A stretch of DNA of 64,000 bases, taken from assembly GCA_022833215.1 (NCBI GenBank), contig JAIPUZ010000113.1, positions 1-64,000 on the forward strand, read 5' to 3'. The translations under genes were made by a program, and so were the position numbers. Each line of letters starts with the position of its first letter. Position 1 is the first letter of the stretch. This document shows positions 36,770 through 62,502 of the stretch, piece after piece. This DNA comes from Mesorhizobium sp. (GTDB lineage: Bacteria; Pseudomonadota; Alphaproteobacteria; Rhizobiales; Rhizobiaceae). The notes beneath the pieces were generated by a model, which saw only the letters and a list, made by a program, of their open reading frames with translations, was not told the DNA's origin and searched no databases.

Positions 36770-36791
36770 GTCGTGACTGCACCATGCTGGG
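36770..36791 (+). promoter_or_regulatory. Class III (late) promoter
   Basis: GTCGTGA-CTG-CACCAT fits GTCGTGA-N3-YANNMT. Unlike most copies there is no ATG at +1; the next gene (36832) has its own Shine-Dalgarno. Confidence 0.55.
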
Positions 36792-36831
36792 AGGGGCGAT
36801 GCCTCCATGCTGGTCAACGACGGAGATTTCC

Positions 36832-36948
36832 ATGTTCTACATCCTCGCAGTTCTTTTCGGCGTCGCCGGCGGGATCTACGCCGAGCGCAAGGGCTGGGTG
36901 AAGCTGGCGCTGGCAAAGCTCGAAAAGATCGCGGACCCTTTCAACTAG
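36832..36948 (+). CDS. 38-residue membrane protein
   Basis: MFYILAVLFGVAGGIYAERK is one membrane helix, followed by a basic amphipathic tail. GGAG precedes the ATG by 7 bases. It follows a late promoter, so a lysis-related or membrane role is possible but unproven. Confidence 0.55.
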   Translation: MFYILAVLFGVAGGIYAERKGWVKLALAKLEKIADPFN

Positions 36949-36955
36949 GATTGGT

Positions 36956-37231
36956 ATGGCTGTAATCTTCGGCCGAGTTCCCAAGGCGGAACTCGGAACT
37001 GTCTATACACACGTCGGTCGGTTTTACGGCATCATCCCCGTCTACATCGGCGATCCATTTGGCCCCGCTCCAGTCGTGGCGGTGCGCAACGGGCTGCCGG
37101 AATGGCTGCTTGATGCCGCTGACCTCGTGTGGAATTTGGCGGTGGCTGCGCGCCGGCTGTTCGATCCCACCTTCCCGCATCCGGGCTTCATGATGGCTGT
37201 CACGGGCGAGATCAAAAAGCCCCGCTCGTGA
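36956..37231 (+). CDS. Hypothetical phage protein
   Basis: 91 residues: RFYGIIPVYIGDPFGPAPVVAVRNGLPEWLLDAADLVWNLAVAARRLF. Hydrophobic, possibly membrane-associated. Starts 7 bases after the small membrane gene. Confidence 0.6.
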   Translation: MAVIFGRVPKAELGTVYTHVGRFYGIIPVYIGDPFGPAPVVAVRNGLPEWLLDAADLVWNLAVAARRLFDPTFPHPGFMMAVTGEIKKPRS

Positions 37232-37253
37232 CCGGGCACCTGATGCTGAGTCT

Positions 37254-37296
37254 GGCGCCGGCCGGCCAGAAGCCCTTGGTATAGCCGGCCGGCGCC
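37254..37296. terminator. Large GC hairpin, possible terminator
   Basis: GGCGCCGGCCGGC pairs perfectly with GCCGGCCGGCGCC (13 bp, 17-base loop). No T run follows, so it may be a rho-type or transcript-stabilising hairpin. It lies just before the late promoter at 37347. Confidence 0.5.
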
Positions 37297-37346
37297 GGCA
37301 TCTGCCCCGCCCCGGGCGCGTATAGGGCGCGCTCCGCCGCGAAATC

Positions 37347-37369
37347 GTCGTGACCGTACCCTGCAGGGT
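37347..37369 (+). promoter_or_regulatory. Class III (late) promoter
   Basis: GTCGTGA-CCG-TACCCT; ATG of the large ADP-ribosyltransferase-like gene begins 23 bases after the first G. No Shine-Dalgarno. Confidence 0.65.
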
Positions 37370-40351
37370 ATGTCGACGCCCTCCGTCTCCACGTTCCCCG
37401 TCTTGTTCCTGAAAGCCATGAAGAACAAGGCGGGTTATGCCCTCTACGGCAACCCGCCTCGCTGGCACAAGGTTGGCGGGGACAAGACGGCGCCTGCCGA
37501 CGCGCATCATGTTGCGATCTCTCACTACCATGTCGCTGCGGTCAAGAAGCTGCAAGCCGATGGCAAGCTGCACGGCCTCGCACCGCATGAGCAGTCCGCC
37601 AAGGTAAAGGGCCTGGCTGCCGAACTGCAGGCGGCCGCATCGCAGTCTGCCGCAGTGTCGATGTGGAAGAAGGTTGCCAGCTCCGGCAAAAACCCGACGC
37701 CGGCGCAGTGGAAGGCGTTCTATGCGCTGTCCAAGGACAAGCAGTCGGACCTGCTGGGCCAGATCGGCGAGTCGACGGGCGGGCAGTGGTCGCACCTGTC
37801 GCCGCCGGACGAGGCCAAGCCGCAGGCGGCGCCCGCTCCCGAGCCGCCGAAGCCGGATCCTGCCACGCTCGCCTTGGCGGCGGTGGATTGGACCGGGATG
37901 ACGCTGCCCGACACCAACGTCAACGCCGGAACGGTGAACAAGAAGCTGGCCGCACTGAAAGAGGCGGCGGCTACCGGCGAGCCCGAGAAGGTCGCGGCGC
38001 TGAAGTTCGGGGTGAACACCTACGGCAAGAAGCTCGCGGCTGCGCAGGCCAAGATCCTTGCCGCTCTCGGCGCGCCCGCGCAGGGCGTCGCTGCTGCGGT
38101 GGCCGCTACGCCCGCGCCGAAGGTGGCGAAGGTCGCAGCGGTGCCACCGTCCGCTGCGCCTGCGGCAGCTCCCGCACCGAAGCCGCCGCGCGTCGCCAAG
38201 GTGGCATCGTTCGCGCCCTCGTCGACCATCACCCTCGAGCACAAGACGGACGGCCACAACAAATTCTATTGGATCTCGGTCAGCGGCGATCAGGTATCCA
38301 CGAAGTGGGGCGCGATCGGCACCACCGGCCAGACCACGACGAAGAAGTTCGATAACCCGTCCGTGGCGCTCGCCTATGCAAATGCCCTTGCCGCTCAGAA
38401 GCTGAAGAAGGGCTATCAGCACACCTCGGGCAAGCTGCCCGACGCGCCGGCCTCGCCCAAGGTCGCCAGCGTCTCGCAGGCCGGCCCGAAGGAAGGCGAC
38501 ACGAAGCAGGGGGCGGACGGCATGCTCGTGCTGAAGCACGGGCGCTGGGTGAAGGTCGAACAGGACCAGCCGTCTGCGCCGGCCGCCCCGCATATAGATT
38601 CCCAGCCGCTGGACATCTCCGGCTGGAAGCAGGTAGGCCCGCAGGCCGGCTCGAACCCGGGTGGCGTGTTCGAAGCCCCGGACGGCGCCCGCTACTACGT
38701 CAAATTCCCCAAAAATCCCGACCATGCGAAGTCCGAGGTTCTCGCGGCCAAGCTCTACGAGCTGGCCGGGATCACGGCCCCGATCTCGCGCATGGCGACG
38801 CAGAACGGCAAGGTCGGCATCGCCTCGCTCATGGACGAGTCCCTGAAGCACGACGTGCCGGCGCTGTCCTCTGGCAAGGTGCACAGCGTGAAGGCGGGCT
38901 TTGCCGCCGACGCCTGGCTGGCAAACTACGACGTGGCCGGCCTGGGCTTCGACAACGTCATGCTCAAGCCGACGGGCGGCGCCGTGCGCATCGACGTGGG
39001 TGCCTCGATGGAGTTCCGCGCGCAGGGTGCGAAGAAGCCTTTCGGCTCGAAGGTCGGGGAAACCAAGACCCTGCTGGATCCTAAGATCAACGCGCAGTCC
39101 TCGGCTATGTTCGCCGGCATCACGCCGGCCGACATCACCGCTGGCGTGGCGAAGATCGCCGCCATCCCCGACGAGGCCATCCGCTCGCTCGTGCTCGAGC
39201 ACGGCCCCGGCACGGTCGCCGCGCGAAAAAAGCTGGCCGAGACGCTCATCGCCCGCAAGGCCGACCTGCTGAAGCAGTACCCGGCGGCTGCAAAGGCGGT
39301 GAAGAAGAAGCTGGACCCGACGAAGCTGCCTGTGGATCCCTTGCGGCTGCCGAAGGCGCACGACTTCGCCAACTGGAACGGGCCGGGCAATGGCCTGTCG
39401 TCGAAAGGCTACGTCAATGCTGCAAACGCGGCCGTCGAGCAGGAAATGCTCGCCATCGCTACGAAGGGCGACCTGCCGGCCCTGCGCGCCTTCACCTTCA
39501 AGTCCCTGAACAAGGAGTCCGGGCAGGCCACGGGCGCCTCGCACCCGATCTCGGAGCACCCGTCAAAGCACGTCGTGCAGCTGCATCAGGACTTGGTGAC
39601 GCTGCTTGACGAAATCGCCAATCCGCCCGAGCCGCTGAAGCTGTTCCGCGCGACGGATGTGGGCTCCGTGGCCGGCATCGCCGCCGCGTTCCCGCCGAAG
39701 AAGTTCGGCACCACGGTCGCCAAGGTCAAATCCAACGAGAAGCTCGGCTTCTGGGTGGCGCTGGGGCAGGTGTCGTCGGTCGAGAAGTTCAAGCCGAAGG
39801 CGACCTCGCACTTCTCGTCGGCGGCGATCGCCGCGGCGAAGAAGAAGTTTTCGCAGGGTACGCCGCTGGCGCAGCACTTCATTTCCTCGGTGCAGGCGTC
39901 GGGCTCCTACAACACCCTGTTCCGGGACGGGAAGACCCACGACCACTCCGGCCACAGCCTGGCGGACGTGGCGAAGGCCGCGCTCGAGCACGCCACTACC
40001 CAGCCGGAGGGCACCACGCTGTACCGCTGGCAGAATATGACGGACCCGATGGTGCAGCATGTGCTGAAATCGCCGGTCGGCACGGTGGTGCAGGCCACCG
40101 GCCCGATGTGCACGTCCTACGATCCGACCGCCACGACGCACTTTGGCAAGCACCGGGTCATCATCCGCTATGCCAAAGGCGCAAAGGCGGTCGAGTCCTT
40201 CGGATCAGGAAAATACAAAGGCGAGAAGGAGGTGACCACGCTGCCGAACAGCCGCTTCGTCGTGCTCTCGCGGAAGATGGTTCCGTCCAGCACCGGTGGG
40301 CAGCGCCTCGATCTGGAATTGCTGATGTTGCCGCCTGACCTCGGCCTGTAA
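37370..40351 (+). CDS. WGR, kinase-like and ADP-ribosyltransferase multidomain protein
   Basis: 993 residues. The N-terminus (VLFLKAMKNKAGYALYGNP) leads to an Ala/Pro/Lys-rich region. A WGR domain follows at about 285-350 (HNKFYWISVSGDQVSTKWGAIGTTGQ, Trp about 313). At about 425-640 lies a kinase-like segment: GARYYVKFPKNPDHAKSEVLAAKLYELAGI, and WLANYDVAGLGFDNVMLKP with IDVGASMEF (HipA-type D...N...D pattern). The C-terminal ~120 residues are an R-S-ExE ADP-ribosyltransferase: LYRWQNM, MCTSYDP, and GEKEVTTLPNSRFVVLSR. It likely enters the cell with the virion or modifies host proteins; that is inference. Confidence 0.8.
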   Translation: MSTPSVSTFPVLFLKAMKNKAGYALYGNPPRWHKVGGDKTAPADAHHVAISHYHVAAVKKLQADGKLHGLAPHEQSAKVKGLAAELQAAASQSAAVSMWKKVASSGKNPTPAQWKAFYALSKDKQSDLLGQIGESTGGQWSHLSPPDEAKPQAAPAPEPPKPDPATLALAAVDWTGMTLPDTNVNAGTVNKKLAALKEAAATGEPEKVAALKFGVNTYGKKLAAAQAKILAALGAPAQGVAAAVAATPAPKVAKVAAVPPSAAPAAAPAPKPPRVAKVASFAPSSTITLEHKTDGHNKFYWISVSGDQVSTKWGAIGTTGQTTTKKFDNPSVALAYANALAAQKLKKGYQHTSGKLPDAPASPKVASVSQAGPKEGDTKQGADGMLVLKHGRWVKVEQDQPSAPAAPHIDSQPLDISGWKQVGPQAGSNPGGVFEAPDGARYYVKFPKNPDHAKSEVLAAKLYELAGITAPISRMATQNGKVGIASLMDESLKHDVPALSSGKVHSVKAGFAADAWLANYDVAGLGFDNVMLKPTGGAVRIDVGASMEFRAQGAKKPFGSKVGETKTLLDPKINAQSSAMFAGITPADITAGVAKIAAIPDEAIRSLVLEHGPGTVAARKKLAETLIARKADLLKQYPAAAKAVKKKLDPTKLPVDPLRLPKAHDFANWNGPGNGLSSKGYVNAANAAVEQEMLAIATKGDLPALRAFTFKSLNKESGQATGASHPISEHPSKHVVQLHQDLVTLLDEIANPPEPLKLFRATDVGSVAGIAAAFPPKKFGTTVAKVKSNEKLGFWVALGQVSSVEKFKPKATSHFSSAAIAAAKKKFSQGTPLAQHFISSVQASGSYNTLFRDGKTHDHSGHSLADVAKAALEHATTQPEGTTLYRWQNMTDPMVQHVLKSPVGTVVQATGPMCTSYDPTATTHFGKHRVIIRYAKGAKAVESFGSGKYKGEKEVTTLPNSRFVVLSRKMVPSSTGGQRLDLELLMLPPDLGL

Positions 40352-40367
40352 GATGGGGTGTAGAATC

Positions 40368-40868
40368 ATGGCCATGGACAAACGCGAAATTGAGGGCTCG
40401 CCGGAACGGGCGGCAGATCGGGGGCGGGCCGAGGATCTTGGCTGGCCGGCCGGTGATCGCCCGTCGCTGGGTGATCCCGATGTCGTCCTGCAGGTCGTTC
40501 GCGAGTTCAGTGCCGCTGTGGTCGACGTCCGACGGCGCTACAACCTCGACGAGCTGACCAACGATGACGCGCTGGCCGATGTGGACAGGCTGGCTGGGCA
40601 GTATGGCGACGTCATCATGGGCCGCGACAGCGCATACACAGCGCTGCCTTGGAATTCTCCCGACCAGCTCGGTGCGCACATCGATAAGCGGCTGCCCGAG
40701 GCCGGCGAAGACCCGGACCCCGGCAAGGCCCTGTTTCTCGCGCTGGCCCGCTCGCTGCTGGACGTGGTGGTCGCGCATGAGGACGGCAACCTGAAGGACG
40801 GCGAGGCAAAGAGCCATGTCGAGGCGGGGATCAGCGCCGTTGCCGACCTCATCCTCGGGGTTCGCTGA
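40368..40868 (+). CDS. Hypothetical phage protein
   Basis: 166 residues, acidic and helical: VLQVVREFSAAVVDVRRRYNLDELTNDDALADVDRLAGQYG. ATG 40368 chosen; 40353 is possible. Not recognised. The stop overlaps the next ATG. Confidence 0.6.
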   Translation: MAMDKREIEGSPERAADRGRAEDLGWPAGDRPSLGDPDVVLQVVREFSAAVVDVRRRYNLDELTNDDALADVDRLAGQYGDVIMGRDSAYTALPWNSPDQLGAHIDKRLPEAGEDPDPGKALFLALARSLLDVVVAHEDGNLKDGEAKSHVEAGISAVADLILGVR

Positions 40869-41656
40869 TGGAGTGCATCCTGTTCCTGAAGGGGTTCGTG
40901 GCTCCCCACCTGCGCGCAGGCGTTCAGGTAAAGGGGTACTACCGAAAAGATGCGCCGAAGGGGGTTGCAAAGCATCCTCAGAGGGACCACCACGGGGAAA
41001 CTGTGACAGTCCAGAAGCCCACGGCGCCGACACCGCTGGAGACGTGGACCGACCCGCACGCCGTCGCGACGGTGGTGCCTGGCGGGCCGATGCCGACTGA
41101 CCTGCATGGTGTGGCGTTCGAGCCGTGGGCCGACCATCCGCACACCGATGTCGGCTGGGAATACCTGCCCGAGATCAACGACGATCTCGATGAGCCGCCC
41201 TTCCATGCCCCGAACGGCAAGCATGCCAGCGCTGGCGTCATCATCCGTGAGCCGGATGGCCGCGTCTGGCTCACCCACCCGACCAACGGTTTCGGTGGGT
41301 ACAAGTGCACGTTCCCCAAGGGCACGGCGGACGAGGGCATGTCACTGCAGGCCACGGCCGTGCGCGAGTGCTTCGAAGAGACCGGGCTCCGGGTCAGGAT
41401 CACCGGCTTCGTGGGCGACTTCCACCGCACCACGTCGGTCGCCCGCATATACCTTGCCGAGCGGGTCGGCGGTACGCCGTCCGCCATGGGCTGGGAGAGT
41501 CAGGCGGCGTCGCTTTGCCCGGTCGAGAAGCTCTATAGCGTGCTGAACATGCACACCGACCATGATATCGCCGAGGTCATCGGCGCCGGGCCGAAGCCCC
41601 CGAAGCCGAAATATTCGCCTCCGCCCGGGAAGACGGGCGACCTTTTCGGCGCATAA
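40868..41656 (+). CDS. NUDIX hydrolase
   Basis: 262 residues. A leader MECILFLKG...VKGYYRKDAPKGV shares a motif with two other late proteins. The NUDIX fold covers about 115-230: SAGVIIREPDGRVWLTHP, then the box GTADEGMSLQATAVRECFEETGL, where the first box Glu is Met but RExxEE is intact. Such enzymes cleave nucleoside-diphosphate-linked compounds, e.g. ADP-ribose. It neighbours an ADP-ribosyltransferase, so a shared ADP-ribose theme is possible. Confidence 0.85.
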   Translation: MECILFLKGFVAPHLRAGVQVKGYYRKDAPKGVAKHPQRDHHGETVTVQKPTAPTPLETWTDPHAVATVVPGGPMPTDLHGVAFEPWADHPHTDVGWEYLPEINDDLDEPPFHAPNGKHASAGVIIREPDGRVWLTHPTNGFGGYKCTFPKGTADEGMSLQATAVRECFEETGLRVRITGFVGDFHRTTSVARIYLAERVGGTPSAMGWESQAASLCPVEKLYSVLNMHTDHDIAEVIGAGPKPPKPKYSPPPGKTGDLFGA

Positions 41657-41680
41657 AAACAAGCTATTTCAGACACTTGC

Positions 41681-41700
41681 ACTCATTTCTGAGTTAGCAT
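41681..41700 (+). promoter_or_regulatory. Class I-like promoter for the HNH gene
   Basis: ACTCA-TTTC-TGAGT inverted repeat then TAGCAT as -10. Degenerate relative to the strong copies. Confidence 0.4.
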
Positions 41701-41731
41701 ACACCCGCTATTTCAATAGTTCGGGAGGTGT

Positions 41732-42271
41732 ATGACATGCGCAATATGTTCGCATTGCGGCTCTGAGTTTGAGAAACACCGCAGCGAGAAGGTCTGTTTT
41801 CTAAAATGCTCCGTTTTATCCAGAACGGCTGTCTCAGGGGAGAACGATTGTTGGGAATGGCTTGGCTCCATCGGTTCGCATGGGTACGGCGTTTTCTCAT
41901 TTCGAGGGATCCAGTACACCACGCATCGCGCCAGTTACCTCGCCCACAAGGGTGAGATACCCAGCCGAGATGGAGGACATGGCGGCGTTGTCATGCATAG
42001 TTGCGACAACCGCCCGTGCGTGAACCCATCGCATCTTTCTGCCGGCTCTCAGGGTGAAAACCTTGAGGATGCCGAAAACAAGGGACGGATGGTCCATGCC
42101 GGGCCGCGTGGCGAGTTGTCCAGAACGGCAATCCTAACCGCTGAAAAAGTGATGGCGATCCGGGGCCGATTGAGCGCCGGGGAGACGGGGCGTGCTCTGG
42201 CGAACGAATACGGGGTCACCCCCAGCACGATATCCAGCATCAAAACTGGGAAAATATGGAAACACATTTAG
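41732..42271 (+). CDS. Free-standing HNH homing endonuclease
   Basis: 179 residues. N-terminal zinc motif CAICSHCGSEFEK, then CWEWLGSIGSHGYGVFSFRGIQYTTHRASYLAHKG and VMHSCDNRPCVNPSHLSAGSQGENLEDAENKGR, the HNH core with its zinc Cys. The C-terminal HTH (ALANEYGVTPSTISSIKTGKIWKHI) binds DNA. GGGAGG precedes the ATG. Lower GC and its own promoter mark it as an inserted selfish gene. Confidence 0.9.
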   Translation: MTCAICSHCGSEFEKHRSEKVCFLKCSVLSRTAVSGENDCWEWLGSIGSHGYGVFSFRGIQYTTHRASYLAHKGEIPSRDGGHGGVVMHSCDNRPCVNPSHLSAGSQGENLEDAENKGRMVHAGPRGELSRTAILTAEKVMAIRGRLSAGETGRALANEYGVTPSTISSIKTGKIWKHI

Positions 42272-42283
42272 AAGGTGAATGGC

Positions 42284-42646
42284 ATGTGGATTATGCTTTC
42301 GGACAGTTTCCTGTCCATCGTCCATAAGGACTGCAAGCCCGATGAGCTGCTTGTACGGGCGCGTCGGAAGGGTGACGTCGAGCGGGTTTTCCCTCACGCA
42401 AAGGTGATCAGGACGCCTGGGAATGACTACCTTTTCCGGGCGGTACTTAAGCGCGACGAAGTGGTCGCCGCGATTGCCAACAGGTTGAACACGCTGGGCT
42501 ACGGGAACTACAAGTCATCGGTCAAAAACCGTCCGTTCCATAATGCGCTGAGCCGGGTCTGGAGCATCATGGCCGGCCTGCAGACGTCCGCGCCCTATTC
42601 TGGCGTGCGCCGTGGTCGTCGGGATCTGTTCGAGGAAATGCATTGA
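42284..42646 (+). CDS. Hypothetical phage protein
   Basis: 120 residues: MLSDSFLSIVHKDCKPDELLVRARRKGDVERVFPHAKVIRTPGNDYLFRA. This is a recurring small phage family of unknown function that I recognise by the SxVxxxxxPDxLLVRAR pattern. ATG 42284 follows AAGGTGA. Confidence 0.65.
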   Translation: MWIMLSDSFLSIVHKDCKPDELLVRARRKGDVERVFPHAKVIRTPGNDYLFRAVLKRDEVVAAIANRLNTLGYGNYKSSVKNRPFHNALSRVWSIMAGLQTSAPYSGVRRGRRDLFEEMH

Positions 42647-42900
42647 TGGACACCAATATCCGCCCTCTGGAAGATGTCGCGCAGGAGCACATGCAGACCG
42701 TGCCCACTGCCATCTTGAGCGCGTTCGTCCGTGGCGACCTCGACCTGATGCTCTGCGTGCGTGCCGAACTGGCCGCGCGCGGGCTCGGCCTGCATGGCGA
42801 GTGGATTGGGTTCGAGGAAGCCATGCGGCTTCATCTCGGCCTTGATCCTGACTGCAAGTCTGATGCCCCGCCCGCGCCGGGCTTGGAAACGCTGGGGTGA
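42646..42900 (+). CDS. Hypothetical phage protein
   Basis: 84 residues from ATG 42646 (TGATG overlap): LEDVAQEHMQTVPTAILSAFVRGDLDLMLCVRAELAARGL and WIGFEEAM. A common small phage protein with no assigned role. Confidence 0.65.
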   Translation: MDTNIRPLEDVAQEHMQTVPTAILSAFVRGDLDLMLCVRAELAARGLGLHGEWIGFEEAMRLHLGLDPDCKSDAPPAPGLETLG

Positions 42901-42944
42901 CGGCCTCGGCCAGCGGCCTCGGGCGCTGGTCGGGCACATTCCGG

Positions 42945-42966
42945 GTCGTGACCGCAGAATGGCAGC
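42945..42966 (+). promoter_or_regulatory. Class III (late) promoter
   Basis: GTCGTGA-CCG-CAGAAT. No ATG at the expected +1; the gene start downstream is at 43002. Confidence 0.5.
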
Positions 42967-43001
42967 ATCCCATTTATCGCTTCGGCTTCTGGAATCCTGT
43001 C

Positions 43002-43373: not shown

Positions 43374-43376
43374 ACT

Positions 43377-43398
43377 GTCGTGATGCCATCCTGATTGG
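43377..43398 (+). promoter_or_regulatory. Class III (late) promoter of terL
   Basis: GTCGTGA-TGC-CATCCT; terminase ATG exactly 22 bases after the first G. No Shine-Dalgarno. Confidence 0.7.
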
Positions 43399-46035: not shown

Positions 46036-46219
46036 TGGCGGCGCGGCGTAGTTTCGCCAGCCCGTTCTTGAAGGCTCGCGCGTCGCTTGGTGTTGAACTG
46101 AAGAACACCGGCGGCGGATCGGGCCGGCTGAATTTCCAATGGTCGCCGCGTGTCTTGGATACGGCGAAGCCTAATTTTTTGGCCTCGGCGATCACCTTGT
46201 GCACTCCATCCTTGACCAT
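46016..46219 (-). CDS. Solitary HicA-like protein
   Basis: 67 residues from ATG 46219, set by AAGGAAAGGAA. HKVIAEAKKLGFAVSKTRGDHWKFSRPDPPPVFFS has the dsRBD-like HicA pattern with the conserved His (GDHWKF). HicA toxins cleave mRNA, but no HicB antitoxin is adjacent. Its 3' end overlaps terL by 20 bp on the opposite strand. Confidence 0.7.
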   Translation of the reverse strand: MVKDGVHKVIAEAKKLGFAVSKTRGDHWKFSRPDPPPVFFSSTPSDARAFKNGLAKLRRAATSIPQP

Positions 46220-46229
46220 TTCCTTTCCT

Positions 46230-46334: not shown

Positions 46335-46356
46335 GTCGTGATCTTACGCTTGCGGT
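46335..46356 (+). promoter_or_regulatory. Class III (late) promoter of the portal gene
   Basis: GTCGTGA-TCT-TACGCT; portal ATG exactly 22 bases after the first G. Confidence 0.7.
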
Positions 46357-48445: not shown

Positions 48446-48523
48446 CGTGGAGTAGCGCAGTCTGGCAGCGCGTCGGTCTCATAAGCCGAAGGTCGCGTGG
48501 TTCGAATCCCGCCTCCGCAACCA
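48446..48523 (+). tRNA. Phage tRNA with CAT anticodon, initiator-like
   Basis: Acceptor CGTGGAG/CTCCGCA leaves C1 opposed to A72, the hallmark of bacterial initiator tRNA. D stem GCGC/GCGC, anticodon stem TCGGT/GCCGA with loop CTCATAA (CAT at 48480-48482). The T stem GCG(T)GG/CCCGC carries one bulged T; loop TTCGAAT. CCA is encoded. The initiator's third G-C pair in the anticodon stem is T-G here. It may be an initiator or an Ile2-type tRNA. Confidence 0.85.
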
Positions 48524-48614: not shown

Positions 48615-48636
48615 GTCGTGACGGCACGATCATCTT
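48615..48636 (+). promoter_or_regulatory. Class III (late) promoter without adjacent gene
   Basis: GTCGTGA-CGG-CACGAT. No ATG at +1. The next gene has its own copy at 48762, so this one would make a short transcript of unknown content. Confidence 0.5.
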
Positions 48637-48761: not shown

Positions 48762-48783
48762 GTCGTGATGCCATTCTGGCCTC
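48762..48783 (+). promoter_or_regulatory. Class III (late) promoter of the head gene
   Basis: GTCGTGA-TGC-CATTCT; ATG 48784 exactly 22 bases after the first G. Confidence 0.7.
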
Positions 48784-49935
48784 ATGGGCCTGTTCCTCGA
48801 CATCATCCACCTCTCCGAGCCGCAGACCGAGCGCGCCCTGTCGGAGATCTATAAATCCGTGCATGACCACGACGCCGGGGACACGCCCCACGAGTCGCCG
48901 TTTGTGCGCCGGATCATCGAGCTTTTCCACCAGCGTGGGCTCGCCTACCTCGATACGGTGCAGGCCGAGCTGCAGAAGTGGGCGGCCGGCAAGTATCACA
49001 AGGCCGGCGAGGTGCCGCCGCGTCCGCTTGGCACGATGCAGCGCTGGACGCAGGCCGAGGCCGATCTCGTGCGCATCTACCTGCGCGCGCTGCCGCCGGC
49101 CGACTGGACGCTGCAGGACCACATGATGATGGTCGACTATGTGTTCCAGCGCTACCTGCCCCCCGATGCACTGGTGGCGGAGGCCGAATGGATGGCTACG
49201 CGGTCGACGCTCATGGGGAAGGTGCAGGCCAACCTCGACAAACCGCCCACGATCTCGCAGGCCGATACCATCCTGGTGGCGCTGCCGAACACGGTCGCCG
49301 CGGCCCTGGAGCAGTTTCCGCTCACGCGCACGCAGCAGGCCGTGCTCGATGTGGCGGCTGCGCGGGGCGCTGAGTACGTCACCAACTTCGCGGACGATGC
49401 CCGGCGGCGCCTGCGCGGCATCATCCGCCGGCACGCCGAGGAAAGTATGCTCCGGGTGCGCGGCACGCCGGGCCAGTCCCTCCAGACCCAGCTTGTGGAC
49501 GCCTTCGCGGACTTGAACCGCGACTGGCGGCGGATCGCCGTGACGGAGGCCGGCAACAACGCTTTGGTCGGGTTCATCGCCAGCTTGAAGCCCGGCACGA
49601 AGGTCAAGCGGGTGGAGCAGTACATGAACGCGTGCCCGCACTGCAGGAAGATCGACGGGCGGGTCATGACGGTGGTGGCGCCGGAAAAGCCCGGCAAGAA
49701 TCCTGACACCGAGGTATGGGTCGGCAAGACCAACTACGGGCGTGCGGCTGCCACGCACAAGCGGGTAGGGAACCAGTTGGTGCCGCGCACGAAGGATGAG
49801 CTGTGGTTCATCCCCGCCGGACTGATGCATCCCAACTGCCGGGGGCGCTGGGTGCGCGTCTTGGAGGCGCAGGAGGGGGACGATCCCGAGTTCGCTGGCT
49901 GGCTGCAGGACTTGCTGTCGAAAAAGCCTAGCTGA
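48784..49935 (+). CDS. Mu gpF/SPP1 gp7-like head morphogenesis protein
   Basis: 383 residues. The helical N-terminus leads to ITVTEAGNN-type core (RRIAVTEAGNNALVGFIASLKPGTKVKRVE), then NACPHCRKIDGRVMTVV and GLMHPNCRGRWV. These are the signatures of the minor head proteins that sit inside the portal vertex. Ends 8 bases into the converging AraC-like gene. Confidence 0.88.
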   Translation: MGLFLDIIHLSEPQTERALSEIYKSVHDHDAGDTPHESPFVRRIIELFHQRGLAYLDTVQAELQKWAAGKYHKAGEVPPRPLGTMQRWTQAEADLVRIYLRALPPADWTLQDHMMMVDYVFQRYLPPDALVAEAEWMATRSTLMGKVQANLDKPPTISQADTILVALPNTVAAALEQFPLTRTQQAVLDVAAARGAEYVTNFADDARRRLRGIIRRHAEESMLRVRGTPGQSLQTQLVDAFADLNRDWRRIAVTEAGNNALVGFIASLKPGTKVKRVEQYMNACPHCRKIDGRVMTVVAPEKPGKNPDTEVWVGKTNYGRAAATHKRVGNQLVPRTKDELWFIPAGLMHPNCRGRWVRVLEAQEGDDPEFAGWLQDLLSKKPS

Positions 49936-50320
49936 CCCTCGCCGAGGCCCCCAATATCTCCCACAGGGGGCACTCCGCGCAGATCGGCGTCGCCATCGGC
50001 GGCGGCTCGCTTTGCCTGCGGTAGGTCGCCGGCGTTATCCCCGTCGCGGCCTTGAACGCCGTCGTGAGGCTGCTCTGGCTGCTGAAACCGCACTCGACCG
50101 CGACATGGATGATCGGCATTGCCGTGGTCGCCAGCAGCACCTTTGCCTTCTCGATCCTGACCGCCGTCAAATACCTGGCAGGGGTGATGCCCATCGCCTG
50201 CTTGAAGCGACGGGTGAAATAGCTTCTGCTCATTCCTGCCGCTCGCGCCATGTCGGAGACATCGATGTGGCCAGCGGCATGCGTGGCGGCATAAGTGGCT
50301 GCCGTCAGGAGTCGGTTCAT
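49928..50320 (-). CDS. AraC-family transcription regulator (moron)
   Basis: 130 residues. Two helix-turn-helices: SDMARAAGMSRSYFTRRFKQAMGITPARYLTAVRIEKAKVLL and VAVECGFSSQSSLTTAFKAATGITPATYRRQ, the AraC/XylS signature. No ligand-binding domain. The C-terminus has CAEC. It lies on the opposite strand within the structural genes, next to an AT-rich island, so it is probably expressed in the lysogen. Targets unknown. Confidence 0.85.
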   Translation of the reverse strand: MNRLLTAATYAATHAAGHIDVSDMARAAGMSRSYFTRRFKQAMGITPARYLTAVRIEKAKVLLATTAMPIIHVAVECGFSSQSSLTTAFKAATGITPATYRRQSEPPPMATPICAECPLWEILGASARVS

Positions 50321-50706: not shown

Positions 50707-50728
50707 GTCGTGACCGCACCATGGTCGG
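50707..50728 (+). promoter_or_regulatory. Class III (late) promoter of the 1515-residue gene
   Basis: GTCGTGA-CCG-CACCAT; ATG 50729 exactly 22 bases after the first G. Confidence 0.7.
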
Positions 50729-55276: not shown

Positions 55277-55283
55277 GTATTAT
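55266..55283 (+). promoter_or_regulatory. Class I-like promoter
   Basis: CCGAAAATTGAG directly followed by TATTAT (55278-55283), 7 bases before the ATG of the secreted protein gene, so its mRNA would be almost leaderless. Confidence 0.5.
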
Positions 55284-55290
55284 CAGTGTC

Positions 55291-55757: not shown

Positions 55758-55782
55758 GTTTTCCCCTACCTTGGGATGCCTT

Positions 55783-55808
55783 GGGCCGCTTTTTGCGGCC
55801 CCTTTTTG
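55783..55808 (+). terminator. Intrinsic terminator
   Basis: GGGCCGC-TTTTT-GCGGCCC followed by CTTTTTG. Ends the transcript before the capsid operon. Confidence 0.85.
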
Positions 55809-55831
55809 TGGCCCCATGCGCGGCCCGGAGA

Positions 55832-55853
55832 GTCGTGACGTCAACATTGCGTC
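55832..55853 (+). promoter_or_regulatory. Class III (late) promoter of the capsid operon
   Basis: GTCGTGA-CGT-CAACAT; ATG 55854 exactly 22 bases after the first G. Confidence 0.7.
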
Positions 55854-56735: not shown

Positions 56736-56737
56736 TT

Positions 56738-57370
56738 ATGGACTTCAAGGAGCTTCTGGCGGCCGCGAACGAGGCGGCCGACGAGCTGAAAAAGTCGCAG
56801 GTCGACGATGGCGATCAGGACGAGAAAATCCACGCTGCCGCTGGCGAAGATGACAACGACGCGGGCGATGCCGATGCCGGCGCTGACGAAGGTCAGGACG
56901 GCGAGGAAACCCTCGGCAAGTCGTTCAAGTTCACGCTGGAGGACGGCACCGAAATCGAGGCGCAGGACGGCACCGAACTGGTGAAGTCGCTCTTCACCCG
57001 TGTCGAAGAATCCGAGGGCGCGATCCAGCAGGCGCTGGGCGCCACGTTCGACCTGGTGAAATCGCAGGGCGCGGTGATCAAGTCGCAGGGCGAAATGATC
57101 AAGAACCTGCAGGCGCAGATCGGCAAGGTTTCGACCGCTGGTCGTGGCCGCAAAGCCATCCTGTCCGTGAACGAGCGTCAGGATCCGACCGCGCTGCGCA
57201 AGTCGCAGGCCGATGAACCCAAGGGCCTCAAGGCCGAGGAATTCATGGCGAAGGCCCTCGACCTGCAGGCCAGCGGCAAGCTCACCGGCCTCGACGTGGC
57301 GCGCATCGAAGCCTCGCTCAACGAAGGTGTTCCCGTCGCCGACGACCTCGTTCGTCGCGTGATGGCCTGA
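56738..57370 (+). CDS. Scaffold-like capsid assembly protein
   Basis: 210 residues. Acidic N-terminus (DDGDQDEKIHAAAGEDDNDAG), then a helical/coiled-coil middle (FDLVKSQGAVIKSQGEMIKNLQAQIGKV) and a C-terminal helix. Position between protease and major capsid and this composition are typical of scaffolds. CAGGAG precedes the ATG. Confidence 0.65.
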   Translation: MDFKELLAAANEAADELKKSQVDDGDQDEKIHAAAGEDDNDAGDADAGADEGQDGEETLGKSFKFTLEDGTEIEAQDGTELVKSLFTRVEESEGAIQQALGATFDLVKSQGAVIKSQGEMIKNLQAQIGKVSTAGRGRKAILSVNERQDPTALRKSQADEPKGLKAEEFMAKALDLQASGKLTGLDVARIEASLNEGVPVADDLVRRVMA

Positions 57371-57429
57371 TCGGCCAAGCCGCACCCTAGCGCATCCATA
57401 AAACGTCCGCATACCTCTCAGGAGAAAAC

Positions 57430-58908
57430 ATGGACTTCCTTACCAATCCGAACACCTCCGGCCTGGGGGTGGCGGGCGAGATGACCTCGCAGCAGCTGCA
57501 GGAACTGCAGAAATCGCTGCAAGCCGGCTATGGCTCGGACATGGCTGAACTGCAGGGCGGCTCGGCGCTGCGTATCCAGTCCCTGGATACCACGCTGCAG
57601 GCCACCGTGCAGGACAACAAGCACTTCGCGCTGTTCAACGCGCTGGCGAAGCCCAAGGCGACGGCGGTGCTGGACGAATGGTCCGAGCAGAAGTCGATCG
57701 GCGGCTGGCTGGGCTCGACCTTCAACACGCAGGACGGCGCGGCCATGGAAACGCATGGCGAGTACCAGCGCATGGTCGGCAAGGTCAAATACCAGACGAC
57801 CTACCGCAAGATCCCGATCGTGCTCGACCGCCAGAACAACCTGTCCGATCCGGTCGCACTGGAAACCGTCAACGGCACCAAGCAGCTGCTGTCCGATATC
57901 GAGTTCGGCCTGTTCGAGGGCGACGACGAAGTTCTGCCCCTGTCGTTCCCCGGCATCACCAAGCAGATCGAAGATCTCGGCAGCACCGATCACGTCATCG
58001 ACATGAACGGCCAGCCGCTGGACAAGGTCGACCCCGTGATGAAGGCAGCGCAGACCGTGTTCGGCTTCGGCAACTTCGGGGTGATCACCGACCTGTACAT
58101 CCCGCCCAGCATCCAGACCGACCTGAACAACCATCTGGATCCCGCCTTCCGCGTGGCGCTGGACAACACGCCGAACAGTATCGCCTACGGCACCCACGTT
58201 CGTGCGATCCAGACGTCTTGGGGCGCCATCGCCACTCGCAACGACGTGTTCATCCGCGATGCCGAGGGCTACCTGAAGAAGCCCTTCGAGGTCCGCAACC
58301 CCATCCTGCTGGAAGTGGCCGTCAAGAACGCCAACTTCAAGCCCGCGGGCGTGACGGCGGTAGCCGATGCCAGCGGCGGTGCCAGCTCGCGCTGGAACGC
58401 TGATCGTGCCGGCGACTACGTCTACGCGGTCACCGGCATCAACAAGGACGGCGAGACGCAGGCGGTGTTCCCGTCCGGCGGCGCGGTGACCGTGGCGGCC
58501 GGTGGCAAGGTGGTGATCACCATCACTCCGTCTGCGGCTGGTTCCGAGACGGGTTACGTGATCTATCGCGGCCGGCAGGACTCCGCCAGCACCGAACTGC
58601 ACGATCTGCGTGAAATGGTTCGCGTACCGAAGGAGCAGTCCGGCAACACGGTGTACGAGGACATCTGCCGCGCGATCCCCGGCTCGACCTCGGCCTACGC
58701 GCTGAACCTGTCGGCGGCGGACCATGCCATCGCCTGGCGGCAGTTCCTGCCGATGCTGAAGATCCCGATGGCGGCGGTGAACTCGCCGATCATCCCGTGG
58801 CTGCAGATGATCTGCGGCTACCTGCGGATCACCAAGCGCAACCAGCACGTCGTCATCAAGAACGTCGTGCCGCGCAGCGCGAGCTGGAAGCCTTTCACGA
58901 ACGCGTAA
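57430..58908 (+). CDS. Major capsid protein
   Basis: 492 residues. N-terminal QKSLQAGYGSDMAELQGGSALRIQ, then FALFNALAKPKATAVLDEW, MVGKVKYQTTYRKIPIVLDRQ and FGFGNFGVITDLYIPPSIQTDL: an HK97-fold phage capsid. Residues about 300-400 (DYVYAVTGINKDGETQAV ... GYVIYRGRQ) look like an inserted fibronectin-III-type domain, probably surface exposed. TCTCAGGAG gives strong translation. Confidence 0.88.
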   Translation: MDFLTNPNTSGLGVAGEMTSQQLQELQKSLQAGYGSDMAELQGGSALRIQSLDTTLQATVQDNKHFALFNALAKPKATAVLDEWSEQKSIGGWLGSTFNTQDGAAMETHGEYQRMVGKVKYQTTYRKIPIVLDRQNNLSDPVALETVNGTKQLLSDIEFGLFEGDDEVLPLSFPGITKQIEDLGSTDHVIDMNGQPLDKVDPVMKAAQTVFGFGNFGVITDLYIPPSIQTDLNNHLDPAFRVALDNTPNSIAYGTHVRAIQTSWGAIATRNDVFIRDAEGYLKKPFEVRNPILLEVAVKNANFKPAGVTAVADASGGASSRWNADRAGDYVYAVTGINKDGETQAVFPSGGAVTVAAGGKVVITITPSAAGSETGYVIYRGRQDSASTELHDLREMVRVPKEQSGNTVYEDICRAIPGSTSAYALNLSAADHAIAWRQFLPMLKIPMAAVNSPIIPWLQMICGYLRITKRNQHVVIKNVVPRSASWKPFTNA

Positions 58909-58961
58909 TGGCTTGAAACTGGGCGGCTTCGGCCGCCCGGTTCATCACAGGAGGTTTCACT

Positions 58962-59372
58962 ATGAGCAAGACCGTTCAGGTAGTCCGGCAGAAGCCCGGC
59001 CTGCTGACCCCCATCAACGGCGTGGCCTTCAAGCCGCACGCCGAAGGCTCGATCTCGGAGCCGATCACCGTCGAGGTGGCCGAGAAGTTCCTCTGCGCCC
59101 CGGGCTACGTGGTGGTCGAGGACACCAAGGCTGCCGAACGTCAGCTGGCCGCTGCCGAGCAGAAGGCTGCAGATGAAAAGGCCGCGAAGGAAGCTGCCGA
59201 GAAGGAAGCCGCTGCCACTGCTGCCGCTGCTAAGGCGGCTGCAGACGCGGCTGCCGAAAAGGCTGCCGTCGAAGAAGCGGGCAAGAAGGCCGAGGCGAAG
59301 GGCTCACGCTCGAAGTCCGGCGACACCAAGCAGACCACCGGCGCCCCGGAAGGCGAGGGCTCGGTTTTCTAA
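58962..59372 (+). CDS. Small head protein with Ala/Lys/Glu tail
   Basis: 136 residues. A short beta domain (VQVVRQKPGLLTPINGVAFKPHAEGSISEPITVEVAEKFL) and a long single helix AAEQKAADEKAAKEAAEKEA with an SRSKSG end. Probably a capsid accessory protein; family not recognised. CAGGAGG sets the start. Confidence 0.6.
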   Translation: MSKTVQVVRQKPGLLTPINGVAFKPHAEGSISEPITVEVAEKFLCAPGYVVVEDTKAAERQLAAAEQKAADEKAAKEAAEKEAAATAAAAKAAADAAAEKAAVEEAGKKAEAKGSRSKSGDTKQTTGAPEGEGSVF

Positions 59373-59381
59373 GGAGCGACT

Positions 59382-59780
59382 ATGTCGGATCCGTTTTTCC
59401 CCGTCAGCGTGCGCGAGACGCTGAACAAGATGAACCCGGCCGCAGCCCGCGTTGGGCTCGGAGATATCGTCGCCGATCTGCAAGAGAAAGCGGCGGAGCC
59501 GGATGCTCCGGCGGATATTCCCCCGGCCACGACGGCCGAGCCCGGGCTGATGTCGGCGCAGGACAAGTCGAAGCTGAACGGGATCGCTGCTCAAGCAACC
59601 CGCAACGAGACCGACGCGAACCTCCGAGACCGTGCGAACCACAGCGGCTCGCAGGCGGCGACCACGGTGAACGTGGCGGCTGACGCAGCCTCGGGAGTCG
59701 CCGCTGGTAACCTGCAGGTGGCGTTCGTTGCCCTGGCGAACCGGGTGAAGACGCTCGAGGACGCCGCCGGCGGCGGCTGA
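59382..59780 (+). CDS. Fibre-type repeat structural protein
   Basis: 132 residues. TTAEPGLMSAQDKSKLNGIAAQATRNETDANLRDRANHSGSQAA is the familiar tail-fibre connector repeat (GLMSxxDKxKLxGIxxxAT). It sits unusually among head genes, so it may decorate the head or neck. AAGGAG precedes the ATG. Confidence 0.65.
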   Translation: MSDPFFPVSVRETLNKMNPAAARVGLGDIVADLQEKAAEPDAPADIPPATTAEPGLMSAQDKSKLNGIAAQATRNETDANLRDRANHSGSQAATTVNVAADAASGVAAGNLQVAFVALANRVKTLEDAAGGG

Positions 59781-59847
59781 TTCCCCTCCTGTTTCATGGC
59801 CCTTTGGGCGCGGGCCGCATCTGCGGCCCATTTATTTGCGAGGCATC

Positions 59848-60939
59848 ATGGCATCCATCATCGCCGGTACGGACTCTACCTTCACCGTCTCGGTGCAGAC
59901 CGATGGCCGGCCTGTGCCACTCAGCGGCAGCGTGACCGCCCGGGTCATGACCATGGACGCGCGCACGACTGTCGTGCCGCAGTTCAATCTCGACGAGAAC
60001 GGCGAGGGTGCGGATTGGCCCGATGGCGTGGCTGCGGTGACGCTGACCGGCGCCCAGACCGCAGCGCTGGAGCCGCGCGAGCACATGCTGGTGCTGCAGG
60101 GAGGCTTCGGCATCAAACGTTTCAGCCTGCGGGTGGAGACGCTGACCGTGCCGACCCGTAATTCCCTGTTTGTGCGGGATCTGGTTGTGGACGAAATCCG
60201 CCGCGACCGCATCATGGCTGCCGCTACCAGCCTGCTTGCCGGGATCGAGGTATCCGACGACTATATCTGGGACAAGGTCCGCGCGGCTGAGTCCGAGGTC
60301 GCGCACACGTTGCGCGTGCCGCTGGTGCCGACGAAGTTCTTCCCGATCAAGCCCACGCAGGCACAGATCGACGCTCTTGAGGGCATGGCGTGGGCGGTTG
60401 ATCCTGCCTACGACTACCACCCCGACATGTTCCACTTCGAGAAGTGGGGCTATTTCATTGCTCGTCAGCGGCCGATTATCTCGGTCGAAAGCCTGCGCTT
60501 CGCATACCCGTCACAGGAGTCCGGCTTCTTCGACATCCCCTTGGACTGGATCCGTATCGACGCGAAATACGGCCACGTCCGCCTGGTGCCGTCCAGCCCG
60601 GCGGTGTTCGCCACCATGGACGCCTTCATCATGACGGCGCTCGCCAGTTCGCGGTCGATCCCCTTCATGATCCAGCTTTCCTATACGGCCGGGCTGGAGG
60701 ACGTGGACCAGAACTACCCGGAGCTGCCCGACATCGTGAAGCGCCTTGCGGTGCTGAAAATCGTCTCCGACACCTTCCTTCCGCAGTCCGGCTCGATCAG
60801 CGCCGATGGCCTGTCACAGTCCATCAGCGTGGACATGGACAAATATCAGGAGGCGATTGACGCCGCGCTCAATGGCCCGCCGGGCGCGAATGGTGGCCTT
60901 GTCGCCAAGCTGCACGGCATCCGCACGCTGGTGATCTGA
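59848..60939 (+). CDS. Head-tail connector protein
   Basis: 363 residues. The N-terminal beta domain (STFTVSVQTDGRPVPLSGSVTARV) is followed by DDYIWDKVRAAESEVAHTLRVPLVPTKFFP and IPFMIQLSYTAGLEDVDQNYPELPDIVKRLAVLKI, matching the gp6-like adaptor that extends the portal. ATG 59848 chosen because GCGAGG precedes it. The stop overlaps the next ATG. Confidence 0.75.
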   Translation: MASIIAGTDSTFTVSVQTDGRPVPLSGSVTARVMTMDARTTVVPQFNLDENGEGADWPDGVAAVTLTGAQTAALEPREHMLVLQGGFGIKRFSLRVETLTVPTRNSLFVRDLVVDEIRRDRIMAAATSLLAGIEVSDDYIWDKVRAAESEVAHTLRVPLVPTKFFPIKPTQAQIDALEGMAWAVDPAYDYHPDMFHFEKWGYFIARQRPIISVESLRFAYPSQESGFFDIPLDWIRIDAKYGHVRLVPSSPAVFATMDAFIMTALASSRSIPFMIQLSYTAGLEDVDQNYPELPDIVKRLAVLKIVSDTFLPQSGSISADGLSQSISVDMDKYQEAIDAALNGPPGANGGLVAKLHGIRTLVI

Positions 60940-61592
60940 TGAGGCTCAATCCAAGCGCTTTCAACCGGTTTCTCGACGGGATCGGTCAGTCGTTCCTGTG
61001 GCGGCGCAGCGATGCGTGCCCTTGCTACAATCCCAACTCCGGCGCGGCCAATCCTCGGTGCCCGCACTGTGGCGGGAAGGGACGCATGTGGCACCCACCG
61101 GTCCCAGCAAAGGCCGGCGTCGCCTCGGCGAACGTCCAGCGAGAGTGGGCGCGCTCCGGCATGTGGGAGAACGGCGACCTTGTCCTGGCGATCCCCGGCA
61201 ACTCTCCTATGTGGGGCATGGGCCAGTACGACCGCGTGACCATGCTCAACGCCACCGACCAGTTCTCGGTGACGTTGACGCGCGGTTCGCCGGTGGAGAG
61301 CTTGCGCTTCACCGTGGTGGCCGTCGAGCGCGTGTTCTGGATCGATCCGCAGACGCAGGAGCTGGTCGACGGGTCTGCGCCGGCGGTATCGGATGACGGG
61401 ACGCTTGCGTGGCCGAATGGCGGGCCACCCGTGGGCGTGGGCTACACCATCACCGGCACCAAGCACCTCGACTACTATGTCTATGGGCAGCTTCCCCGGA
61501 ACCGGAACGAGCACCACGGTGCCCGGCTGCCGAAGGCCGCGGTCCTGCGCAAGTGGGATCTGCTCGGGCGCGGCAACGCCGCCGGCTACTAG
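60939..61592 (+). CDS. Head-tail joining protein with zinc motif
   Basis: 217 residues. SDACPCYNPNSGAANPRCPHCGGKGRMWHP is a CxC...CxxCxGxG zinc knuckle; the rest is beta-rich (GDLVLAIPGNSPMWGMGQYDRVTML). Resembles Mu-like and other myovirus neck proteins. Overlaps the converging tail-completion gene by 4 bases. Confidence 0.7.
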   Translation: MRLNPSAFNRFLDGIGQSFLWRRSDACPCYNPNSGAANPRCPHCGGKGRMWHPPVPAKAGVASANVQREWARSGMWENGDLVLAIPGNSPMWGMGQYDRVTMLNATDQFSVTLTRGSPVESLRFTVVAVERVFWIDPQTQELVDGSAPAVSDDGTLAWPNGGPPVGVGYTITGTKHLDYYVYGQLPRNRNEHHGARLPKAAVLRKWDLLGRGNAAGY

Positions 61593-62455
61593 CCGAGGGT
61601 GCGCTTGACGGCTTCCTGAAACGCCTTCTCCGCGAGAGGGCGCATTTCTTGCTCGACCTGCTGGGCGATGTTGCGCGCACCCTCGGGCTTGGTCACCCAG
61701 CCGGCCTGGCCTTCCATGATGATCCTGAAGGTGAGGAAGGCGCTGGACGGCGCGTTCGGCGTGCCAGTGTCGAAGCGCACCATGCCTTTGAAGCGGCGGC
61801 GTTCCTCGGCGGTCAGGCCCTCGACGCCCTTCAGGTCTTTGCCGCGCAGGCGCTGGCCCCACGCATAGATGTTCTTGTTCACCATCGTTGCGTTCCGGCT
61901 GGCCGGGCTGGACAGAAACGCGCTTTGCCCAGCCGCCGGCGCCATTCCCGATCCTGGCGACATGGAGGTGATCTGGCCTGCGGGGCGCTCTGTCCGGCCG
62001 ATGACGGTCGTGGGCGACAGCGCCTTCGCCATGGCGTGCACGGACGGCGGCATGGGCTTGCTGTGCGCACCGTGGCCGGGCGTGTTGTGGCGCATGGGGA
62101 TCACCAAGAACCGCTTCCCGTTCTTGGCCGAGCGCCGCACCTTGGGGCTCGTGTCGAGCATCTTCTTGAGGTCGCGCCCAGGGCGGCCTGACTCGATCTC
62201 GCTGGCTTGGTCGTAGGACGCTTCCACGACGGCGGAGAAGTCGCCCGTCATATGCCATTTGATCGACTCGGCATAGGCGTCCTTCTCGCCAGACCAAATG
62301 CCGGACTGCTTGAGCACCGCTTCCTTCCAGTTCTCGTGCATCTGGAACGCGATGGCGCGCACGGCCTGATTCAGCAGCGGGAACACCTCCTTGGTGATCG
62401 CGCCCTTGATGTCCATGACATGGCCGAGGTCGAGGTTGACTTTAAATCTGATCAT
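61589..62455 (-). CDS. HK97 gp10-like tail completion protein, on the opposite strand
   Basis: 288 residues. LNQAVRAIAFQMHENWKEAVLKQSGIWSGEKDAYAESIKWHMTGDFSAVVEASYDQASEIESGRP is the gp10/neck-completion pattern, with VIPMRHNTPG and FLTFRIIMEGQAGWVTKPEG later. It is inverted within the operon but carries its own late promoter. ATG 62455. Confidence 0.72.
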   Translation of the reverse strand: MIRFKVNLDLGHVMDIKGAITKEVFPLLNQAVRAIAFQMHENWKEAVLKQSGIWSGEKDAYAESIKWHMTGDFSAVVEASYDQASEIESGRPGRDLKKMLDTSPKVRRSAKNGKRFLVIPMRHNTPGHGAHSKPMPPSVHAMAKALSPTTVIGRTERPAGQITSMSPGSGMAPAAGQSAFLSSPASRNATMVNKNIYAWGQRLRGKDLKGVEGLTAEERRRFKGMVRFDTGTPNAPSSAFLTFRIIMEGQAGWVTKPEGARNIAQQVEQEMRPLAEKAFQEAVKRTLG

Positions 62456-62477
62456 GCTGCCAGCGTACCGTCACGCC
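62456..62477 (-). promoter_or_regulatory. Class III (late) promoter, minus strand
   Basis: Minus strand GGCGTGA-CGG-TACGCT, ATG 62455 exactly 22 bases after the first G. Back to back with the plus copy at 62481. Confidence 0.6.
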
Positions 62478-62480
62478 ACG

Positions 62481-62502
62481 GTCGTGACGGCATCATGCTT
62501 TC
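62481..62502 (+). promoter_or_regulatory. Class III (late) promoter
   Basis: GTCGTGA-CGG-CATCAT; ATG 62503 exactly 22 bases after the first G. Confidence 0.7.

Follow-up and report, generated by a model that had tools for sequence, protein, structure and literature searches.

A GTCGTGA motif at a fixed distance ahead of start codons as a predicted late promoter of a family of tailed phages and prophages in proteobacteria

Leaderless messages and promoters with a reduced architecture have been described for several phages and bacteria. In Thermus phage phiYS40, most middle and late messenger RNAs (mRNAs) carry no leader (PMC3594737), the AR9 paper describes phage transcripts as often leaderless, and in Deinococcus-Thermus a TANNNT −10 box adjoining open reading frames (ORFs) drives leaderless genes, with spacing requirements (PMC12340547). 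Sigma appropriation is known from T4, through AsiA and MotA, and the middle and late promoters of Thermus phage P23-45 belong to the extended −10 class (both PMC7403470). Here, we analyse a 64,000-nt stretch of Mesorhizobium sp. DNA (the window), part of the 92,981-base contig C113, in which a 16-bp motif, GTCGTGA-N3-YANNMT, precedes the start codons of prophage genes at a fixed distance. We propose, with a probability of about 0.86, that this motif is the late promoter of tailed phages and prophages of roughly 80–98 kb (PHB04, Dolphis, ST4, Touem01, fHe-Yen8-01 and their relatives) and that transcription from it would often start on the AUG itself.

The closest precedents share single features with this arrangement. 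As in phiYS40, phage mRNAs would rely on leaderless translation, here predicted from sequence; in contrast to phiYS40 and its Thermus host, the hosts here are proteobacterial and about half of the sites would be leadered. We know of no GTCGTGA-type element in phiYS40. The TANNNT boxes of Deinococcus-Thermus likewise lie a few bases ahead of the ORF, but they are host-wide and have no phage element, whereas here a family-specific phage element, GTCGTGA, precedes the box by 3 bp. Relative to the AsiA/MotA system of T4, the element here occupies −22 to −15, directly beside the putative −10 box. Late promoters without a −35 element are shared with P23-45, whose extended −10 TG at −15/−14 is not found here.

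In the mechanism we propose, YANNMT would act as the −10 box for host polymerase carrying a sigma70-type sigma, and GTCGTGAC at −22 to −15 would stand in for the absent −35 box and be read by a phage-encoded factor. Transcription would begin about 22 bases past the first G of the motif, with a purine preferred. For roughly half of the sites, transcription would thereby begin on the A of ATG, yielding a leaderless late mRNA translated from its 5′-terminal AUG; at the remaining sites the identical start would yield a leader, mostly short, with a Shine-Dalgarno sequence. We infer the RNA start, the use of sigma70, the late timing, and the phage factor and its identity, the late class from the functions of the genes.

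The fixed-distance motif is real. The sequence-only reading of this DNA had claimed eleven copies, with an ATG at offset 22 from the first base in seven and at 23 in one; we find all of them, ten on the plus strand and a one-mismatch copy on the minus strand, with offset 22 at six plus-strand copies and at minus-strand 62477, and offset 23 at 37347 (Table 1). That reading had overlooked a one-mismatch copy at 23914 with an ATG at 22. Beyond the window, C113 holds further exact copies at 66010, 72278, 80328 and 84799, and an inexact one with a high matrix score at 89472. Offset 22 holds no ATG at three copies (36770, 42945 and 48615), and a GTCGTGA at 50061 sits within an AraC-type ORF and lacks A−11.

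With up to one mismatch, the window contains 13 motif matches against 2.27 expected from 100 dinucleotide shuffles, the largest of which gave 7. The 16-bp motif has 17 copies in the 4.55-Mb host assembly, 14 on C113 and 3 elsewhere, the reversed control also giving 3. A scan of prophage and host genome with tabulated distances to start codons had been suggested as a check, and it places all seven exact copies with an ATG at 22 on C113; allowing one mismatch, 3 of 16 lie outside.

The same distance recurs across the phage family. We compared 79 IMG/VR loci found by a TerL search, near-duplicates included, and added C113; offsets from 12 to 33 were counted where the ATG opens an ORF of at least 50 codons. 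An exact GTCGTGA is followed by an ATG 101 times at offset 22, 15 times at 23 and 10 times at 14, against 0–3 at each other offset; the non-redundant counts are 83, 13 and 10, again with 0–3 elsewhere. The ten ATGs at offset 14 arise because an ATG is formed inside the box. The full motif lies on the terL strand in 56 of the 79 loci and on the opposite strand in none, and GTCGTGA occurs solely on the non-terL strand in 6. A site with an ATG at 22 is present in five of six loci from named bacterial contigs (two Geminicoccus, Microvirga, Parvibaculum and Steroidobacter), the Phenylobacterium locus having none; in the Microvirga genome, five copies of motif plus ATG fall within about 37 kb around the prophage terL and one elsewhere.

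Six named genomes were scanned over their full length. Among records searched whole, 27 of 29 carry the motif with an ATG at 22, so that the look at related phages proposed alongside the original claim returns the same distance; the reversed control gave 0 in all 29, and the motif with ATG is confined to one strand in each virus record. When the whole of IMG/VR was searched with a tighter consensus that included the ATG, four stretches came back, each with late genes of this phage family; L185, one of the four, lies on a contig already among the relatives. In three of the four, the match of a homologous late protein starts exactly at the ATG, which is not evident for L186 among the matches listed. 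As far as searched, the motif appears restricted to this phage family. The idea of a phage-specific promoter is borne out to this extent: motif and fixed distance are found only in the prophage within the host, recur in relatives, and precede structural, packaging and lysis genes.

To describe the promoter we built a matrix from 119 non-redundant sites of 145 (up to one mismatch, ATG at 22), taking the A of ATG as +1. The consensus runs G−22 T C G T G A−16, followed by C−15 (69%), A−11 (92%), T−7 (92%) and C−1 (61%). A−11 and T−7 are the key, nearly invariant bases of sigma70 −10 boxes, about six bases before the start, and a sigma70-type −10 box expects T−12, an extended −10 promoter TG at −15/−14. 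The suggestion that YANNMT is a −10 box with transcription starting at the A of ATG agrees with these figures, since A−11 and T−7 lie where a sigma70-type polymerase needs them. No −35 box, which would be expected about 17 bp upstream of the −10 box, is conserved (at most 0.15 bit anywhere from −52 to −23), and −15 is C in 69% and −14 G in 54%, with TG at −18/−17 instead; readings as extended −10 or −35 promoters were rejected as unlike the matrix. At offset-23 sites, 19 of 20 have C or T at position 22; with a preference for purines, transcription would shift its start there by one base. A possible diverged form of the promoter occurs upstream of portal in L065, L066, L067, L069, L081 and L083, where a changed element, CGTGAC-ACTACAGT, lies within a 10-bp palindrome and is followed by AGGAG.

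This anatomy bears on two alternatives. If GTCGTGA were the operator of a phage repressor laid over an ordinary promoter, silencing late genes in the prophage, its overlap with the promoter spacer would be natural, and several relatives do encode integrases and small helix-turn-helix (HTH) proteins annotated as repressors; but no upstream −35 box is conserved, so the element looks required for recognition rather than added, and we regard an operator as unlikely. Were the RNA polymerase itself encoded by the phage, whether T7-like or of the single-chain cellular type found in P23-45, its promoter would end at +1 and would also be compact, phage-specific and fixed in its start. The PHROG family phrog_23333 ('polymerase') matches the 993-aa protein, the match being limited to the WGR domain (residues 291–351), and no polymerase domain was found among the C113 proteins scanned with PHROGs and Pfam, a subset that does not include the 1066-aa and 1851-aa proteins. 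No conserved D.DGD site appears in ORFs of at least 250 aa in seven genomes, where its occurrences are scattered, and conservation is weak from +4 to +20 (0.41 bit or less at each position). A search for the T7-like polymerase family PF00940 was empty in 28 records, its positive controls likewise giving no match, so that this search carries no weight either way. A phage polymerase seems very unlikely.

Start codons and ribosome-binding sites divide the sites into two classes. Scanning with the matrix gave 255 non-redundant hits (of 306), with an ATG at 22 in 113, at 23 in 20, at 21 in 4 and at none of these in 118. Strict use of AUG is a property of leaderless initiation, and the codons at 22 and 23 comprise 133 ATG against 4 GTG or TTG, of which a single one opens a reading frame. 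The eight named genes of the window had been described as having no Shine-Dalgarno, and their pairing energies, the gene at 72300 included, indeed range from +0.6 to −3.2. Energies of −4 or below occur at 65% of 97 other sites (118 less 21 with no candidate, the best candidate start being taken, which is generous), at 73% of 62 other C113 genes (called by a gene caller that favoured Shine-Dalgarno starts) and at 28% of 1,000 random places in C113. Of the 118 sites with no ATG at 21–23, 79 have a Shine-Dalgarno start in reach, at varied distance and with a median leader of 24. Position 22 of the 118 sites favours A only slightly (42 sites). At the level of sequence, the claim of leaderless late transcripts is supported: the fixed ATG distance, the placement of A−11 and T−7 and the AUG starts favour it. 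About half of the family sites would give leaders.

These classes also speak to whether the motif acts in RNA rather than DNA, as a translation signal bound by the ribosome or a phage protein about 22 bases before the AUG. A constant distance to ATG in genes that have no Shine-Dalgarno is what such a signal would give, but it leaves the 118 sites and their variably spaced Shine-Dalgarno starts unaccounted for, the A−11/T−7 spacing and the pyrimidine rule at position 22 fit transcription initiation, and hairpins straddle the predicted start at a minority of sites. We judge a translation signal highly improbable.

Independent gene starts place the motif similarly. When starts were anchored by homology, taking the in-frame start nearest to the place expected from the C113 proteins and dropping cases with short upstream DNA or an unmatched N terminus, GTCGTGA with up to one mismatch lay at 21–23 in all nine proteases, 40 of 56 portals, 22 of 39 terL, 15 of 28 minor head proteins and 3 of 4 ADP-ribosyltransferase (ART) proteins. 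In five named phages, the predicted ATG (at 22 or 23, matrix score at least 13, ATG-at-21 sites excluded) is the depositor's start at 24 of 31 sites; at the seven that disagree, the two starts differ by a multiple of three in five cases and by some other distance in two. For some deposited genes, such as Dolphis 14320 and 23688 and ST4 70150, the motif points to a different start codon. Dolphis also carries an annotated MazF/MazE pair (76195–76744), in a phage that apparently uses leaderless mRNAs. A link between MazF/MazE and leaderless translation is an idea, and we mention it only as such.

Several results weigh against a leaderless late promoter read by sigma70. Position −12 is C in 56% and T in only 24% of sites, which makes the putative −10 box weak. 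The full motif is missing from 23 of the 79 terL loci, and GTCGTGA altogether from 5; strict copies with ATG are absent from Mecenats66 and record G021, and relaxed copies in Mecenats66 include one at 39560 before the protease and one at 46183 before the relative of the gene at 62503. At homology-anchored starts, the motif is missing at 21–23 in 17 of 39 terL, 16 of 56 portals, 13 of 28 minor head proteins and 1 of 4 ART proteins; among these misses, the portals of L025, L037, L055, L072 and L080 keep it farther upstream with a leader, six loci have the changed element CGTGAC-ACTACAGT, and others have none. In the leaderless class, only 3% of 132 starts (5 short ORFs having been removed from 137) reach a Shine-Dalgarno energy of −4 or below, but part of this low score follows automatically from the motif, which occupies −22 to −7. 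Leaderless mRNAs are described as rare in enterobacteria by a review (PMC9031893), and some hosts here are gammaproteobacteria. Finally, bare GTCGTGA shows no enrichment in the window (13 copies, 9.59 expected), and the 7-mer with its distance is not significant in a single genome, the best pair of 7-mer and distance reaching 6–8 in 30 Markov shuffles where 7 was observed.

This last result is what chance combined with the reader's selection would produce. The significance rests on the full motif, real gene starts and relatives, not on the bare 7-mer; the family-wide counts, the four of four stretches from the consensus scan and the agreement with depositors' starts speak against chance, which the relatives refute and whose remaining probability is next to nil.

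The genes served are consistent with a late class. On C113, sites precede the WGR/ART-type protein, terL, portal, the minor head protein, the helicase-domain protein, the head protease, two genes of the head/tail block, the gene at 72300 and the HTH protein at 23936; across the family they precede packaging, head, tail and lysis genes, with leadered sites before holin genes in PHB04 (90389) and ST4 (37545). The HTH protein, which by reading alone looks like a terminase small subunit, has orthologues whose site lies 40–50 bases upstream in Dolphis (site at 72811), Touem01 (6229) and ST4 (3897), apart from the main late block. The gene at 62503 has no PHROG match, and its ST4 relative is annotated as a head-to-tail adaptor. 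It is served by one of two divergent sites, 62477 (minus) and 62481 (plus), which stand back to back at 62462–62496 with 3 bp between them, the other serving 61589–62455 on the minus strand; such pairs also occur in PHB04 (14015+/13999−), Dolphis (14298+/14280−) and Touem01 (42690+/42673−). A tRNA-Met gene (48446–48523) lies within the late block, and the site at 48615 follows it with no clear gene.

A minority of sites carry a hairpin over the predicted start. At the terL site, an inverted repeat, CCATCC..GGATGG, spans it. An initial test by folding energy was dropped as confounded by G+C content and replaced by GC-matched swaps (200 rounds): perfect stems of at least 6 bp straddle the predicted start at 18 of 137 leaderless-class sites against a mean of 6.0 (largest 14), and at 26 of the 118 other sites against a mean of 8.7 (largest 16), 5 of the 26 having a T-run. 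RNA started at the promoter would lose part of the stem, which read-through RNA would keep, and this difference may bear on what the hairpins do.

What reads the element is less certain. A phage-encoded reader is the simplest account, because the element is constant while its carriers' hosts span, as we take it, alpha-, beta- and gammaproteobacteria. The best-conserved candidate is g27, a putative zinc-type protein that may read the motif or bind RNA polymerase, encoded beside the cysteine-rich g28. Both are present in all 29 records. Searched as a single sequence, g27 gave only 2 loci; an alignment search gave 93, of which the best 80 were kept. In 80 loci (near-duplicates included), 79 g27 and 76 g28 ORFs were found; in a phage collection, g27 occurs in 9 records, all of this family. 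Structure models of the two are confident (pLDDT 90.6 for g27 and 85.2 for g28), and neither has a Foldseek match in the PDB at E ≤ 0.001, the g28 rows including short, non-significant matches to RNA polymerase subunits (E 4.5). A PDB profile search gave nothing for g27 at E ≤ 1 and weak matches for g28, the best to zinc-ribbon ribosomal proteins (E 0.036); Pfam gave no match above cut-off for g27, g28 or g11. Both genes also occur in G021 and Mecenats66, the two records that lack a strict motif copy followed by ATG, which weakens the link. That the g27/g28 pair is the phage factor is a guess that we consider possible but doubtful. An alternative candidate is g11, a small HTH protein with a weak Cro/C1-type match, found in 24 of 29 records.

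Two other kinds of factor were considered. A phage sigma factor was rejected, as Sigma70 region 2 (Sigma70_r2) was found in 0 of 28 records, C113 not among them, with positive controls detected in 10 of 14. An AraC-type activator reading GTCGTGA could be encoded by the AraC-type HTH ORF of the window, which has counterparts in PHB04, Dolphis, ST4 and Touem01, but such a regulator is found in 13 of 28 records and is missing in fHe-Yen8-01 and G001, both of which carry the motif with ATG; it was rejected as a universal factor, and as the activator it is quite unlikely.

Combining these elements, g27 and g28 as a zinc-type pair might read GTCGTGAC in the spacer beside a degenerate −10 box, a new form of sigma70 appropriation that would fix the start on the AUG and make late translation leaderless across alpha-, beta- and gammaproteobacterial hosts. 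Hairpins at a subset of sites would then form in read-through transcripts alone, and an exposed start codon, or escape from termination, would be reserved for transcripts made from the late promoter. This full scheme is speculative, and we hold it to be less likely than not.

Leaderless phage mRNAs are already known; a GTCGTGA element of a phage family, with the start placed on the AUG, seems undescribed in the literature searched. Our searches, mostly at title level and with subscription journals largely outside them, found no description of a GTCGTGA late promoter, the 20 of 393 papers listed for GTCGTGA being mostly unrelated by title, and the words 'promoter' and 'leaderless' were not found in the Mecenats66 and Touem01 papers. 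The motif predicts base-exact 5′ ends for many late mRNAs throughout the family. If true, the proposal gives a testable instance of proteobacterial hosts that have to make key structural proteins from leaderless mRNAs, which are said to be rare in enterobacteria, and points to a new phage-encoded transcription factor whose DNA target is defined.

Table 1 Predicted late promoter sites, candidate factor genes and prophage boundary in the window
Feature	Coordinates	Strand	Start or offset	Gene or remark
Late promoter site	37347..37362	+	ATG 37370, offset 23, pyrimidine at 22	Large WGR-domain protein (ART-type per relatives' annotation)
Late promoter site	43377..43392	+	ATG 43399, offset 22	terL (GpA-type ATPase)
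Late promoter site	46335..46350	+	ATG 46357, offset 22	Portal
Late promoter site	48762..48777	+	ATG 48784, offset 22	Minor head protein
Late promoter site	50707..50722	+	ATG 50729, offset 22	1515-aa helicase-domain protein
Late promoter site	55832..55847	+	ATG 55854, offset 22	Head maturation protease
Late promoter site	62481..62496	+	ATG 62503, offset 22	Head/tail block gene
Late promoter site, GGCGTGA (one mismatch)	62462..62477	−	Offset 22	ATG of gene 61589–62455
One-mismatch site	23914..23929	+	ATG 23936, offset 22	HTH protein
Site without ATG at 22	36770..36785	+	Predicted start 36792	Then AGGGGCG, ATG 36799
Site without ATG at 22	42945..42960	+	Predicted start 42967	Next called gene 43002
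Site without ATG at 22	48615..48630	+	Predicted start 48637	Downstream of tRNA-Met gene
g27	22974..23498	+		174 aa, eight conserved cysteines; best-conserved factor candidate
g28	23498..23926	+		Cysteine-rich, zinc-ribbon-type; beside g27
g11	10979..11209	+		Small HTH protein (weak Cro/C1-type match); alternative factor candidate
AraC-type HTH ORF	49928..50320	−		Stand-alone; rejected as universal factor
Left att core	3632..3678	+		47 bp, in tRNA-Arg gene; right copy C113 92867–92913

The prophage that carries these sites is 89 kb long and is delimited by the 47-bp direct repeat of the tRNA-Arg gene. The gene at its right end (91505–92677) is related to annotated integrases of PHB04, Dolphis, ST4 and Touem01. 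Adjoining this integrase-like gene is a small cysteine protein (C113 91291–91503; L002 9291–9503), for which a Pfam scan gave nothing above cut-off and whose relatives in Dolphis and Touem01 are named TraR. Elsewhere in the window, a helicase-like protein (11428–14139) has Hint and homing-endonuclease matches and probably carries an intein; the related ORF is shorter in five of six relatives compared and long in Touem01.

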